From: Bacillota bacterium
Lineage (GTDB): Bacteria > Bacillota > Sulfobacillia > Fermentithermobacillales > Fermentithermobacillaceae
Direction: 5' to 3'
Assembly: GCA_012841065.1 (NCBI GenBank)
Contig: DUVI01000042.1
Coordinates: 1-64,000 of the forward strand
Length of the DNA: 64,000 nt
The notes beneath the pieces are model-generated. The model searched no databases, had not been told where the DNA came from, and worked only from the letters and a program-made list of their open reading frames with translations. Positions 58,031 to 63,332 of this stretch are shown here, piece by piece (the stretch's first letter is position 1; each line of letters begins with the position of its first letter). A program made the position numbers and the translations under genes.

Positions 58031-59596
58031 CTAACCTGATATATCCTGCGGACTACCCAACTTGCGTTTTACAAGATTTGTTATGAGTACGATCTCTTCA
58101 CATTTGAGGATGAAGGCGCACGCCAGGTACACCGCAACAGAAGCCCCTACAACCAAGAAGGTCAACAATATGTCGTGCTTCATGCTGCCTGTACCGGCTG
58201 TCACGCCCGAATATGTCCCAAGCGCCCATGCGCACATACCCATTACTGCAGATGAAACCAGTATCTTCAGACCAGATCCGGCGAGCTGCCTGAAGTTAAC
58301 TCCAGCAATATGCTTTGTGTAAAACATCAGGCCGGCCACGGCACCTATCCACGACGCCAGTACATTGGCCAGCGCCAGGCCAAGATGCCCCAAGGAGTTG
58401 ACAAACACAAGGTCAAGTACAATATTGACACACGAAACCCCAAAGGCAAGTACCACAGGATACCATGTATTCTGGCTCGAATAGAAACCCACGTCAACAA
58501 TCCTGGCAAGCGCCAACCCTACGATTCCGAGGGAGTAAATCGACAGGGCACCGGCAGTAAGCAAAGTGGCTGTGCCTGTAAACGCGCCCCTCTCAAAGGC
58601 AATCCTGACAATGGGCTTGGCGAGCACCGTAAGCCCAACCGCAGAAGGCACGCACACAAACAGTGCATAACGCGCCCCGGTAATGAGGGTCTCACCCATA
58701 GCTTCATGGTCTTTCCGCGCCCACATTTCAGACAGGGTTGGAAATACCACCGTGATTACGGCGGTGACGAACAGATCGAGGGGCAGCGACCGTATCCTGC
58801 CGGCGAAATTCAGGGCAGCTATTGAGCCGGGGACAAGCCTTGACGCCAGATTCTTGTCGACAAGGGTGTACAGCTGGGTTGCAAGCCCCCCTACCACAAG
58901 GGGAAGTGCCAGCTTGAACACTTGCTTGGTGCCATGATCAGCCTCAGGCCGGAAGCGGAGGCCCAGGCGCAACTTCCGCACCCAAGGGGTTTGAATTGCA
59001 TTATATGACAGGTAACCTGCCACAGTGGCGATGGCCAGACCACCCAAACCCAGTCTAGGAGCTAAGAGGGCTGTAAGAGTGACGATGCAAAGGTTTTGAA
59101 CGAAGGGAGCTATTCCGGGTACGGTAAACTGCTTGTAGGTATTGAGTATACCCTTGTACAACGCACCTAGAAGCGGCAATGCAAACGCAGGAAAGAAAAG
59201 CCTTGTGAGTCCCACTGCACTGTCAAACACATCGCCTGAGAAACCCGGCGCGTACAACCTCACCAGAGCAGGTGCAAACGGGATAGCCACCAATCCTGCA
59301 AAGAGGAACACGCCAACAGACAAGGTAATCACCGACGACGCCAACCTTGCCGCACCCTTCTTGTCATCTTGAGCTGCGTATGAGGCAAAAACCGGCAAGA
59401 ACGCAGTCGACACCGGATTGGAAATAAGTCCGGTAAGCACTGTAGGTATGGCAAGAGCTACAACATACGCATCAGTGAGCCCTGATGCCCCAAAAAACCA
59501 AGCTAAGAGCTGCTCACGCACAAAACCCATGATTTTCGAAAGTACACCCAGAACCGAGACTATTACAGTAGCCCTCGCCATCCCTTTCTTTGACAC
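58031..59596 (-). CDS. murJ: Lipid II flippase MurJ
   Basis: SVLGVLSKIMGFVREQLLAWFFGASGLTDAYVVALAIP, multi-TM MviN family. Confidence 0.93.
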   Translation of the reverse strand: MSKKGMARATVIVSVLGVLSKIMGFVREQLLAWFFGASGLTDAYVVALAIPTVLTGLISNPVSTAFLPVFASYAAQDDKKGAARLASSVITLSVGVFLFAGLVAIPFAPALVRLYAPGFSGDVFDSAVGLTRLFFPAFALPLLGALYKGILNTYKQFTVPGIAPFVQNLCIVTLTALLAPRLGLGGLAIATVAGYLSYNAIQTPWVRKLRLGLRFRPEADHGTKQVFKLALPLVVGGLATQLYTLVDKNLASRLVPGSIAALNFAGRIRSLPLDLFVTAVITVVFPTLSEMWARKDHEAMGETLITGARYALFVCVPSAVGLTVLAKPIVRIAFERGAFTGTATLLTAGALSIYSLGIVGLALARIVDVGFYSSQNTWYPVVLAFGVSCVNIVLDLVFVNSLGHLGLALANVLASWIGAVAGLMFYTKHIAGVNFRQLAGSGLKILVSSAVMGMCAWALGTYSGVTAGTGSMKHDILLTFLVVGASVAVYLACAFILKCEEIVLITNLVKRKLGSPQDISG

Positions 59597-59815
59597 AATC
59601 TCATCCCTTTTTCAAAGAAATTTGAACTCAACACTATGGTACCTTACGAAATCATAACATCAAACACAAAAAAGAGGATTATCTCCTTCGTTGTAGAATC
59701 AAGATCTGATGGGAGGCAGAAGTACTGTCCGCATCACGGTTCATATTCCGAGACAAACTGACCGGATTCCATAATACAACCATGCTTCCCCAAAACGTTA
59801 AGGAGGTCATTGCTC

Positions 59816-60991
59816 ATGCAATTCCAAGGTCTGGTTGTCGGCGTCCTGAAAGAAATCATGCCAGGTGAAAGACGCGTAGCAGCTATTCCTGAAACGGTAA
59901 AAAAGATGGTAGCCGCCGGTGCCAAAGTATTGGTGGAAAAAGGTGCAGGCATCGGGTCCTATTTCCCGGATTCTGAATATTCAAATGCCGGCGCGGTAAT
60001 AGTCGACGATGTTGAGGAGCTGTTCGCACAGGCGGACATTATCCTCAAAGTCAAGGAGCCCCTTTTCAACTCCGGCAAGAACAAGCACGAAGTGGATTTC
60101 ATGCGTGAAGGCCAAGTGCTTATCACCTTCTTGCACCCTGCTGCTCCGGCAAACCACGAGATGATCAAGAATCTATCTGCAAAAGGCGTTATTGCTCTCA
60201 CCCTGGACGGGATTCCCAGAATTTCAAGAGCCCAGGCTATGGACGCTTTGACTTCCATGAGCACAGTAGCCGGGTACAAAGCTGTACTCATGGCCGCAAA
60301 CCGTCTGCCCAAGTTCATGCCCATGATCGGCTCAGCAGTAGGTATGATCCCTCCCGCTACAGTCACAGTGTTGGGAACCGGTGTTGCCGGACTCCAGGCA
60401 GTTGCGACTGCGAAGAGGCTGGGCGCCGTTGTTCACGCAGTGGATATCAGGCCTGACGCAGCAGAGCATGCCAAGAGTTTGGGAGCAAGGCCGGTTGAGA
60501 CAGGTATCCCGGCTGAAGTGGCAATCGGTAAAGGCGGTTACGCCAAGGCACTTCCTGAAGAATGGCTAATCAAAGAACGGGAAGCTATCAAAGACACCAT
60601 CATCAAGTCAGACATTGTCGTAGCTACGGCTCTGGTACCAGGACGGCTGGCACCGGTACTGATTACTGAAGAAATGGTCAAAGCAATGAAGCCCGGTTCT
60701 GCAATCGTTGACGTCGCCATTGACCAAGGCGGAAACTGCGAACTGACCGTAGGCGGAGAAGTAATTGAAAAATACGGTGTAAGCATAGACGGAACCAAGA
60801 ACATCCCCGGAATGGTTCCCGAAAGCTCAACCACCATGTTCGCAAGAAACGTGCTCAATTACGTTTCAAACATCGTGAAGGACGGCAAGATCGTGATTGA
60901 TCTCGAAGATGAGATTACTGCATCCTCACTGGTATGCAAAGACGGCGAACTGGTTCACGCCGGAGCAAGGGAAGCTATGGGACTTAACTAA
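59816..60991 (+). CDS. NAD(P) transhydrogenase alpha subunit, domain I (PntAA/alpha-1)
   Basis: GVLKEIMPGERRVAAIPETVKKMVAAGAKVLVEKGAG, GTGVAGLQAVATAKRLGAVVHAVDIR; ATG 59816 with aaggagg RBS. Confidence 0.94.
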   Translation: MQFQGLVVGVLKEIMPGERRVAAIPETVKKMVAAGAKVLVEKGAGIGSYFPDSEYSNAGAVIVDDVEELFAQADIILKVKEPLFNSGKNKHEVDFMREGQVLITFLHPAAPANHEMIKNLSAKGVIALTLDGIPRISRAQAMDALTSMSTVAGYKAVLMAANRLPKFMPMIGSAVGMIPPATVTVLGTGVAGLQAVATAKRLGAVVHAVDIRPDAAEHAKSLGARPVETGIPAEVAIGKGGYAKALPEEWLIKEREAIKDTIIKSDIVVATALVPGRLAPVLITEEMVKAMKPGSAIVDVAIDQGGNCELTVGGEVIEKYGVSIDGTKNIPGMVPESSTTMFARNVLNYVSNIVKDGKIVIDLEDEITASSLVCKDGELVHAGAREAMGLN

Positions 60992-61011
60992 TCGTTCAAG
61001 GAGTGGCGTTA

Positions 61012-61290
61012 ATGGATGTACTTATTCAGGTCGTCGTGTTTGCAGTTGCAACCTGGCTTGGGTATAAGGTGATTAGCGAAGTGCCTTCACTGCTTCACAC
61101 ACCCCTTATGTCAGGTTCCAACGCCATTTCAGGCGTTACAATCCTTGGTTCCCTGGTGTCCACTGCCCTCGCGGTGAGCTTGAGGAGCAAGGCACTTGGG
61201 TTTGTAGCCATAGTCCTGGCTTGCATCAACCTGGTAGGTGGATTTGTGGTTACAGACCGGATGTTGAGGATGTTTAAGAAACAAGAATAG
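61012..61290 (+). CDS. NAD(P) transhydrogenase alpha-2 membrane subunit (PntAB)
   Basis: SEVPSLLHTPLMSGSNAISGVTILGSL, 3 TM helices; between alpha-1 and beta. Confidence 0.92.
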   Translation: MDVLIQVVVFAVATWLGYKVISEVPSLLHTPLMSGSNAISGVTILGSLVSTALAVSLRSKALGFVAIVLACINLVGGFVVTDRMLRMFKKQE

Positions 61291-61307
61291 ATTAACGGGG
61301 TGTCGAG

Positions 61308-63332
61308 ATGGATCAAGTATATGTTGTAGTTTCGATCGTGCTTTCAGGGTTGGTCCTCCTTGGCATTAGATGGATGAGTTCTCCCCGGACTGCTGTTCGC
61401 GGCAACCGGCTAAGTGCCTTGGCCATGTTCATCGCCATAGTGCTGACCCTTTGGAACAACCTTATCTTGAATGTGCCCGTGCTCTGGGCAGCAATGGCAA
61501 TTGGTTCGGCCTTAGGCTGGGTGATCGGTGTAAGAGTCAAAATGATACAGATGCCGCAAATGGTAGCTCTGCTCAATGGGTTCGGCGGCGGCGCCTCGGC
61601 ATTGGTATCCATGATTGAAGTCATGGATAAATACCAGAACATGGCTACCTTCAACAAGCTCAGCGGCCAACTGGGGCTCATTGTCGGGGGCGTGACGTTC
61701 AGTGGCAGCATGATAGCTGCTGCAAAGCTCGACAGGCGCATGACCCAGATACCTGTACACCTTCCCAACCATAACCTTTGGTCCAACCTGAGCATTGTGG
61801 CCATGTTTGGCTTGGGGATTGCAACGCTTTACTTTGATGCCGCAGTAGTGCCGATATCACTGCTCGTACTCATCATATCCCTTGTATATGGCGTGCTTTT
61901 TGCCATAAGGGTCGGCGGAGCTGATATGCCCATCACCATCTCGCTCCTGAACTCATTCTCAGGACTGGCAGGGTCTATTGTAGGTTTCACGATTTCAAGC
62001 CCGCTGCTCGTAGCAGTAGGAGCTATCGTAGGGGCCTCAGGGCTTATCCTCACCCAAATAATGTGCAAGGCGATGAACAGGTCACTGGCCAACGTTTTGA
62101 GCGGTGCCATCGCTAAGCCATCGTCCAAACCGAAGGCGGAAGCTCCCAAAGCACCTGCAGAAGAAGCAGTGCCTGAAGTTGCGCCTGAGGCGGAAGCACC
62201 CGGAGCACCTCAAACTCCCGCAGACGAAACAAGTGAGGCCTTCCCTGCAGGGCGTATGCTTAGGGATGCAAGCCGCGTGATCATCGTACCGGGTTACGGC
62301 ATGGCAATTGCCCAGGCACAGCAACATGTCAAGCGACTCATGGACGCCCTGGAGGCCGGAGGCACAGAGGTCAAGTTCGCCATTCACCCTGTGGCCGGCA
62401 GGATGCCCGGACACATGAACGTGCTCCTGGCTGAAGTTGATGTCCCGTACGACAAACTGTGCGAAATGGACGACATCAACCCTGAATTTCCGGACACTGA
62501 CGTTGTCATAGTGGTAGGTGCTTGCGACGTGGTCAACCCTGCCGCAAACACCGCAGAAGATACGCCCATCTACGGCATGCCCGTACTTGACGTGGACAAG
62601 GCGAATAACGTCATCGTATGTAACCTGGATACCAAGCCTGGTTATTCAGGAGTAGACAACCCCCTCTACGAGATGCCCCATGTGGAGCTGCTCTTGGGGG
62701 ATGCAAAAGAGTCCTTGACCCAGCTCTTGCAGGCTGTTGAAGGCCAAGCCGCAGCTCAAACGGCACCGGAGGCAGCAGGACAAAGCGTTGCTCCTGAAGG
62801 CCCTCAGCAAGTGGGCAAGGAGTCCTTGGGAGAAGCCTTGACCAAGGCCAAGAAGGTCACAATTGTGCCCGGTTACGGCATGGCAATTGCCCAGGCACAG
62901 CAACATGTCAAGCGGCTCATGGACGCCCTGGAGGCCAGAGGCACAGAGGTCAAGTTCGCCATTCACCCTGTGGCCGGCAGGATGCCCGGACACATGAACG
63001 TGCTCCTGGCCGAAGTTGACGTCCCGTACGACAAATTGTGCGAAATGGACGACATCAATCCGGAATTTCCTGAAACTGACGTCGCCATAGTGGTGGGAGC
63101 ATGCGACGTGGTCAACCCCGCCGCAAACACCGCGGAAGACACTCCCATCTACGGCATGCCTATACTTAATGTTGACAAGGCGAAAAGAGTGATCGTGTGC
63201 AACCTGGACACCAAGCCTGGTTACTCCGGGGTAGACAACCCCCTCTACGAGATGCCCCATGTGGTGCTTCTCTTAGGTGACGCCAAAGAGTCCCTTCAGA
63301 CTCTGATGACACAAGTGGAAAGCCAGGGTTAA
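61308..63332 (+). CDS. NAD(P) transhydrogenase beta subunit with duplicated nucleotide-binding domain III (dII-dIII-dIII)
   Basis: Membrane dII (MPQMVALLNGFGGGASAL, ADMPITISLLNSFSGLAGSIVGF) then two copies of VPGYGMAIAQAQ...HPVAGRMPGHMNVLLAEVDVPYD...GACDVVNPAA...GYSGVDNPLY. Confidence 0.95.
   Translation: MDQVYVVVSIVLSGLVLLGIRWMSSPRTAVRGNRLSALAMFIAIVLTLWNNLILNVPVLWAAMAIGSALGWVIGVRVKMIQMPQMVALLNGFGGGASALVSMIEVMDKYQNMATFNKLSGQLGLIVGGVTFSGSMIAAAKLDRRMTQIPVHLPNHNLWSNLSIVAMFGLGIATLYFDAAVVPISLLVLIISLVYGVLFAIRVGGADMPITISLLNSFSGLAGSIVGFTISSPLLVAVGAIVGASGLILTQIMCKAMNRSLANVLSGAIAKPSSKPKAEAPKAPAEEAVPEVAPEAEAPGAPQTPADETSEAFPAGRMLRDASRVIIVPGYGMAIAQAQQHVKRLMDALEAGGTEVKFAIHPVAGRMPGHMNVLLAEVDVPYDKLCEMDDINPEFPDTDVVIVVGACDVVNPAANTAEDTPIYGMPVLDVDKANNVIVCNLDTKPGYSGVDNPLYEMPHVELLLGDAKESLTQLLQAVEGQAAAQTAPEAAGQSVAPEGPQQVGKESLGEALTKAKKVTIVPGYGMAIAQAQQHVKRLMDALEARGTEVKFAIHPVAGRMPGHMNVLLAEVDVPYDKLCEMDDINPEFPETDVAIVVGACDVVNPAANTAEDTPIYGMPILNVDKAKRVIVCNLDTKPGYSGVDNPLYEMPHVVLLLGDAKESLQTLMTQVESQG
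62277..62729 (+). repeat. dIII copy 1 (151 codons)
   Basis: Collinear with 62856-63308, offset 579 nt, no indels; 12 aa differences counted by eye. Confidence 0.95.
62856..63308 (+). repeat. dIII copy 2 (151 codons)
   Basis: Second copy of the intragenic duplication; see 62277-62729. Confidence 0.95.

Follow-up and report, generated by a model that had tools for sequence, protein, structure and literature searches.

A transhydrogenase-like operon with tandem dIII domains and alanine-dehydrogenase residues: a possible proton-coupled amino-acid dehydrogenase

The stretch of DNA analysed here (designated the window) comprises the first 64,000 nucleotides of contig DUVI01000042.1 of a Bacillota bacterium belonging to the family Fermentithermobacillaceae (assembly GCA_012841065.1). 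Towards its end it contains three genes on the forward strand, which encode a dI subunit, a dIIa subunit and a PntB-like protein in the three-gene order of Thermus-type transhydrogenases (Table 1), and dI, dIIa, dIIb and dIII are thus all encoded together. Divergent from the dI gene lies a 521-aa open reading frame (58031-59596, reverse strand), which from its sequence we take to be MurJ/MviN-like, and the operon probably starts between the two. The neighbours within the window (MurJ, an ABC transporter) are uninformative about amino acids.

Table 1 Features of the transhydrogenase-like locus in the window and the evidence used to place them
Feature	Position	Strand	Evidence
dI subunit (pntAA-like), 393 aa; R22, K82, H109, D305 (= AlaDH R15, K75, H96, D270); dI motif R137-Q142-D145	59810..60991	+	ORF, Pfam AlaDh_PNT_N/C, residue alignment
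Codon of Lys82 (AlaDH Lys75 equivalent, KVKEP)	60053..60055	+	Alignment; numbering anchored on solved AlaDH
Codon of His109 (AlaDH His96 equivalent, FLHP)	60134..60136	+	Alignment
Codon of Asp305 (AlaDH Asp270 equivalent, IDQGG)	60722..60724	+	Alignment
dIIa subunit (PNTB_4TM), 95 aa, with channel His (HTPLM)	61003..61290	+	Pfam PF12769; His conserved
PntB-like subunit, dII-dIII-dIII, 674 aa, ATG start	61308..63332	+	ORF list, Pfam, genome search, domain mapping
dIIb membrane domain, residues 1-265	61308..62102	+	phmmer domains; transmembrane helices in AlphaFold model
Linker 1, A/P/E-rich, 48 aa, between dII and dIII; pLDDT < 50 at residues 268-311	62103..62246	+	
dIII copy 1, 151-codon block	62277..62729	+	Direct repeat, domain mapping
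N-L-D replacing KRS motif, copy 1, residues 439-441	62622..62630	+	Alignment
Linker 2, between the 151-codon dIII blocks, A/Q/G/P/E-rich; low confidence at residues 481-503	62730..62855	+	
dIII copy 2, 151-codon block	62856..63308	+	Direct repeat, domain mapping
N-L-D replacing KRS motif, copy 2, residues 632-634	63201..63209	+	Alignment

The architecture of the PntB-like protein, which had been described in an initial annotation of the window, was the same on recount: the two full dIII blocks are collinear with 0 indels and 12 amino-acid differences, corresponding to 92.1% identity of the protein and 87.9% of the DNA, and the composition of linker 2 agrees with the Ala/Pro/Gln-rich linker reported there. 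A direct repeat of 300 nt within 61308-63332 (at 62283 and 62862, 93% identical, spacing 579) reflects the same arrangement. The second dIII, for which an HMM scan had been proposed as a check, is covered by a second stretch matching the Pfam PNTB model (PF02233) in addition to that at residues 8-475, and was found independently by genome search (62754-63311, same frame, no stops). In the AlphaFold model of the 674-aa protein (16 sequences, mean pLDDT 76) both dIII domains are folded, and the only long stretches with a pLDDT below 50 are those in the linkers. A Foldseek search matched this model to solved dIII and dII structures, and R. rubrum dI was the best PDB match of the dI model (pLDDT 94), both results speaking for the fold only. 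The gene is the only PntB gene found in the window's draft genome, which is 80.7% complete. The designation transhydrogenase beta subunit, given in the initial annotation, is borne out by domains and fold but is doubtful as a plain name, because the dIII copies lack the KRS motif and the dI subunit carries an active site of the alanine-dehydrogenase type.

A search of 85,462 species genomes for full-length PntB-like relatives returned many, and 156 distinct PntB loci were compared, of which 85 belong to a type termed N-x-D after the motif in its dIII domains and 71 to the classical (KR) type. Domain mapping placed two, three or four dIII within a single ORF at 46 of the 156 loci, so that the dII-dIII-dIII architecture, far from being peculiar to the window gene, has widespread counterparts of the kind for which a search of related genomes had been suggested. 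Three dIII are present in proteins of 869-874 aa from other species of the window's genus, and four in proteins of about 1,010-1,050 aa from other Bacillota, a Desulfovibrio MAG and a Riflebacteria MAG; tandem dIII also occur in the complete genome of Treponema putidum (L014), in two strains of Porphyromonas uenonis (L028, L030) and in several near-closed genomes. In samples of single phyla, a PNTB match was obtained in 35 of 300 genomes of Bacillota, 118 of 249 of Bacteroidota and 65 of 199 of Spirochaetota, tandem dIII being frequent only in the Bacillota sample (1 case in Bacteroidota, 5 in Spirochaetota). Tandem dIII are confined to the N-x-D type, where they occur in 46 of 85 proteins as against none of the 71 KR proteins; the Fisher test (p 3e-16) is indicative only, since the groups differ in how they were drawn (by similarity search or from genome samples) and have related members, and what counts is that none of the 71 has a tandem array. 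Judging from the many N-x-D proteins with a single dIII, the tandem arrangement is not required in this type.

Described transhydrogenases have a universally conserved three-domain architecture with a dII-dIII linker of 14-19 aa (2017 review, PMC5742237), whereas the dII-dIII linker of the tandem proteins has a median length of 38.5 aa according to our own domain borders. In four single-dIII N-x-D proteins of Bacteroidales (L056, L066, L070, L071) the long dII-dIII linker has a coiled-coil-like stretch (e.g. DLEKRIQELEAIVTKLEERVQKLQ) and is not A/P-rich. No earlier description of tandem dIII or of a membrane-linked alanine dehydrogenase was found in the open-access literature, subscription papers lying mostly outside the search. 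Within the dIII repeats, short-read assemblies are prone to broken contigs and scaffolds or to runs of N, and the number of dIII in drafts, the window's included, may therefore be under-counted. Apparent insertions or frameshifts inside the dIII of L115 (G198) and L117 (G048) were discarded as runs of N, i.e. scaffolding gaps, which were probably caused by the repeats themselves. In one near-closed Bacillota genome (G099/G305, contig C1, about 468900-469707), a PntB-like gene is interrupted by in-frame TGA and TAG stops, apparently reflecting either decay of this copy or an error in sequencing.

In E. coli PntB, loop E contributes the residues K424-R425-S426 (KRS) to the NADP(H) site, and the preference of dIII for NADP(H) over NAD(H) is set by loops D and E (PMC9529548). 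We aligned 226 dIII copies, 155 of the N-x-D type and 71 classical ones. Lys-Arg occupies positions 424-425 in 71/71 classical copies, whereas N at 424 and D at 426 are present in 155/155 N-x-D copies and in 0/71 classical ones; the intervening position 425 is Y, L, F or M, with K in one copy, and both dIII of the window read N-L-D. In the E. coli protein it is K424 and R425 that hold the 2'-phosphate of NADP. No new invariant Lys or Arg offsetting the loss of KRS was found in the N-x-D dIII copies; R350 is 100% conserved, and position 428 is Lys or Arg in 75% of the N-x-D copies, both window copies included. From this pattern we infer that the N-x-D dIII binds NAD(H) and not NADP(H), the alternative being that NADP could be held by other dIII residues, e.g. 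Lys/Arg 428.

The dI subunit is homologous to L-alanine dehydrogenase (AlaDH; Ald, TIGR00518). The enzyme of M. tuberculosis depends on H96 and D270 as essential residues; K75 and R15 are assigned to the same site, and K75 and D270 are also listed among the NAD-contacting residues (PMC4691113). When the dI of 77 N-x-D and 66 KR systems were aligned with 20 genuine alanine dehydrogenases (L209-L228), solved AlaDH providing the anchor for the numbering, K75, H96 and D270 were found in 76/77 N-x-D dI (with one gap), in 0/66 classical dI and in 20/20 AlaDH, R15 being kept in both types of dI. The dI loop R127-Q132-D135-S138 (R. rubrum numbering) has R, Q and D in all 77 N-x-D proteins with T or S at the last position, and this RQD(S/T) motif is common to all N-x-D and KR dI and absent in AlaDH. 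An Asp at the end of strand beta-2, the typical NAD(H) selector, is likewise present in 77/77 N-x-D dI. With 198.2 bits, the window dI falls below the cut-off of the AlaDH equivalog TIGR00518 (391.85), and in the genome search it matched this model in two stretches with 126 and 76 bits. The substrate pocket is only partly conserved, as the segment with Met133 and Ser134 of AlaDH corresponds to the R-Q-D-S loop in N-x-D dI; because of this replacement a substrate other than alanine is possible, as is a different role of the residues. A Mariniphaga genome (G244) provides a natural side-by-side comparison of the two types, as it encodes a KRG system without AlaDH D270, KVKEP and FIHP together with an NYD system having KVKEP, FIHP and IDQGG (L229 and L230); as far as the motifs tell, the change in dIII and the AlaDH residues of dI co-segregate within this one genome.

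On the proton side, the channel and coupling residues (E. coli D213, N222 and R265; Thermus alpha His42) are conserved in both types; in the N-x-D type, D213 is present in 100%, N222 in 99% and R265 in 94%, and the channel His was found at 82/85 loci. Immediate neighbours of N-x-D systems include Lrp/AsnC-type regulators at 4 loci and, at a few loci, enzymes of amino-acid metabolism, among them a diaminopimelate dehydrogenase and a class-III aminotransferase, which lends a link to amino acids slight support. In the family of the window, a stand-alone AlaDH above the cut-off was found in 0/8 genomes with an N-x-D system and in 6/6 without. Outside this family the anti-association is weak: in the Bacillota sample of 300 genomes, AlaDH is present in 8/31 genomes with the system versus 131/266 without (Fisher p 0.014), two of the 31 (G376, G495) having been assigned without reading the motif and three others from dI alone. 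Kinship is ignored in the family comparison as well as in this one.

The similarity of the two dIII copies had initially been attributed to recent duplication or ongoing gene conversion, and these two suggestions fared differently. Copy 1 of the window is closest to copy 1 of a sister species (L003; 95.2% protein identity) and copy 2 to its copy 3 (94.5%), whereas in the same comparison the window copies share 87.8% with each other; the dIII duplication therefore predates the two species, and a recent duplication within the window gene was rejected. The middle dIII of the window gene has either been lost or was never present. Over the first 60 codons, on the other hand, the window copies are 98, 96, 100 and 93% identical to each other in DNA (per 15-codon block), compared with 82-93% to the orthologous copies of L003, and this high-identity tract fits partial gene conversion. 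We thus read the window copies as descendants of an older dIII array with partial gene conversion, not of a recent duplication.

In the family at large, the dIII copies are monophyletic within their own protein in 20/44 cases, near-identical copies (80-98% DNA identity) occur within many proteins, and a dII tree of 94 proteins, approximate because quickly built, requires 20 or more switches between one and several dIII; the number of dIII, 1 to 4, is on this reckoning evolutionarily labile. The distinction between first and last copies is maintained from species to species in L010/L012/L013/L016/L023 and in L033/L035/L040, which in the former group suggests specialised copies within one protein. 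The last dIII of L010, L012, L013, L016 and L023 is of a diverged type (IAVHPVAGRMPGHMNVLMAE ... YNLDRSPGY) kept across species. The window pair has a dN of 0.051 and a dS of 0.493 (NG86; dN/dS about 0.10), and since, in addition, the motifs are kept in all copies, the dIII copies are under purifying selection. In a tree with AlaDH as outgroup, the classical enzymes came out within the N-x-D type, but a single N-x-D clade was not rejected by the AU test (p 0.65), so that such an origin is no more than a possibility. On the dehydrogenase reading set out below, the N-x-D type may resemble the state ancestral to the classical NADP transhydrogenases.

The region 59810-63332 encodes a member of a distinct, widespread and apparently undescribed N-x-D branch of the proton-translocating transhydrogenase fold, which we tentatively interpret as a proton-coupled amino-acid dehydrogenase with tethered dIII carriers; we rate this reading only a little below an even chance. 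If NAD(H) were bound on both dI and dIII, hydride exchange alone would be useless, a paradox that a further reaction of dI with a substrate would resolve; the lost NADP-binding signature together with the kept dehydrogenase residues indicates that the system may couple amino-acid metabolism, and not NADPH production, to proton pumping. In its mechanistic form the proposal would be a proton-pumping amino-acid dehydrogenase in which NADH-driven reductive amination (e.g. of pyruvate to alanine) is coupled to proton export, or the reverse, with NAD(H) on dI and dIII and a tethered dIII array; we regard this form as possible, though somewhat short of an even chance. In this scheme, dIII would take NAD(H), NADH on a dIII would give its hydride to NAD+ held by dI, and dI, working by a ping-pong mechanism, would hand the hydride to the imino acid that a 2-oxo acid forms with ammonia, or act in the opposite direction. 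The substrate of dI would be a small amino acid, with alanine/pyruvate as first candidate. Binding and release at dIII would gate protons through dII, and the tandem dIII might serve as interchangeable carriers tethered by flexible A/P-rich linkers, raising the supply of loaded dIII to dI and dII. Since the A face of NADH is used by AlaDH as well as by transhydrogenase dI, one dI site could serve both half-reactions. Under standard conditions, roughly 35 kJ/mol is released when pyruvate is aminated with NADH, which is enough for one or two protons.

The principal competing explanation, which we consider rather unlikely but to be taken seriously, is that of an ordinary proton-translocating NADH:NADP+ transhydrogenase, in which other residues of dIII hold the 2'-phosphate, the AlaDH residues of dI are an ancestral inheritance acting structurally or in nucleotide binding, and the additional dIII increase catalytic capacity. 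The order of the genes, the fold of their products and the domain matches are indeed those of known enzymes, R350 is conserved throughout, and the listing of K75 and D270 as NAD contacts (PMC4691113) would give these residues a use of this kind; Lys/Arg 428, present in three-quarters of the copies, could contribute, but this position is not conserved. Against it, K424/R425, invariant in the 71 classical proteins, are absent from the 155 copies (bar the one K at 425) and the motif contains an invariant Asp, and in several phyla 98-100% of the dI retain the K, H and D, which classical dI do well without. It is also conceivable, if distinctly improbable, that an NAD(H)-specific dIII is combined with a dI which only senses or binds an amino acid, so that NADH/NAD+ exchange would accompany proton movement, as a regulated leak or buffer, with no net amino-acid conversion. 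The NAD-type signatures of both dI (the beta-2 Asp) and dIII (N-x-D) agree with this, exchange alone giving no net redox change; however, all three catalytic AlaDH residues are conserved, which goes beyond ligand contacts, and a pure leak is unlikely to be so widely kept.

Two further explanations concern the array. Compatible with any of the other readings is the view, unlikely in our judgement, that tandem dIII arose neutrally, through unequal recombination in a 3' end rich in repeats and linkers, only one copy being at work. The frequent single/multi changes on the dII tree and the near-identical copies in many proteins are what such recombination would leave; yet neither the N-x-D motif nor R350 has been lost in any of the 155 copies, the dN/dS of the window pair is low, first and last copies remain distinct across species in some lineages, and all 71 classical proteins lack tandem dIII. 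That the array is an artefact of assembly, to be suspected because repeats break contigs or hold N runs and leave the exact number in drafts, the window's included, insecure, is exceedingly improbable: the window copies differ by 12% in DNA, and the complete T. putidum genome, the P. uenonis isolates and several near-closed genomes carry tandem dIII, and we rejected it as source of the architecture.

Compared with known systems, the N-x-D type has in common with PntAB/NNT (PF05222, PF01262, PF12769, PF02233) the order dI-dIIa-dII-dIII, the fold, the R-Q-D-S/T loop of dI and the channel residues; it differs in having N-x-D in place of KRS in every dIII copy, up to four dIII (two in the window protein) where the PntAB/NNT beta subunit has one, a dI with the K75, H96 and D270 of AlaDH, and longer A/P/E-rich linkers. 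With Ald it shares R15, K75, H96 and D270, but the N-x-D dI has the R-Q-D-S/T loop, is encoded beside membrane subunits and, in the window, scores below the TIGR00518 cut-off. The lipoyl domains of pyruvate dehydrogenase E2 and the tandem ACPs of PUFA synthases are near-identical repeats on flexible A/P-rich linkers, variable in number and each serving shared active sites. The dIII arrays are likened to these by design, although the carrier would here be a Rossmann domain which binds a nucleotide and, in addition, gates a proton channel. Single-chain eukaryotic NNT variants are rearranged or fused versions of the same domains; to our knowledge they keep one dIII, and the open-access literature searched yielded no tandem-dIII variant.

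The function of the N-x-D system stands a realistic chance of being new. Natural enzymes with 1 to 4 dIII would allow a direct test of the swivelling or alternating dIII model, since a dimer carrying four to eight dIII cannot keep the classical two-fold division of labour unaltered, and the system may inform how a soluble alanine-dehydrogenase-like protein joined a proton pump. Should dIII bind NAD(H) and dI convert an amino acid, this would be a new way in which anaerobes couple amino-acid metabolism to the proton motive force; the annotation as NAD(P) transhydrogenase subunit beta would then be wrong for the whole branch, in Clostridia and several other phyla, and fermenting and syntrophic anaerobes would possess a previously unrecognised energy-coupling site.
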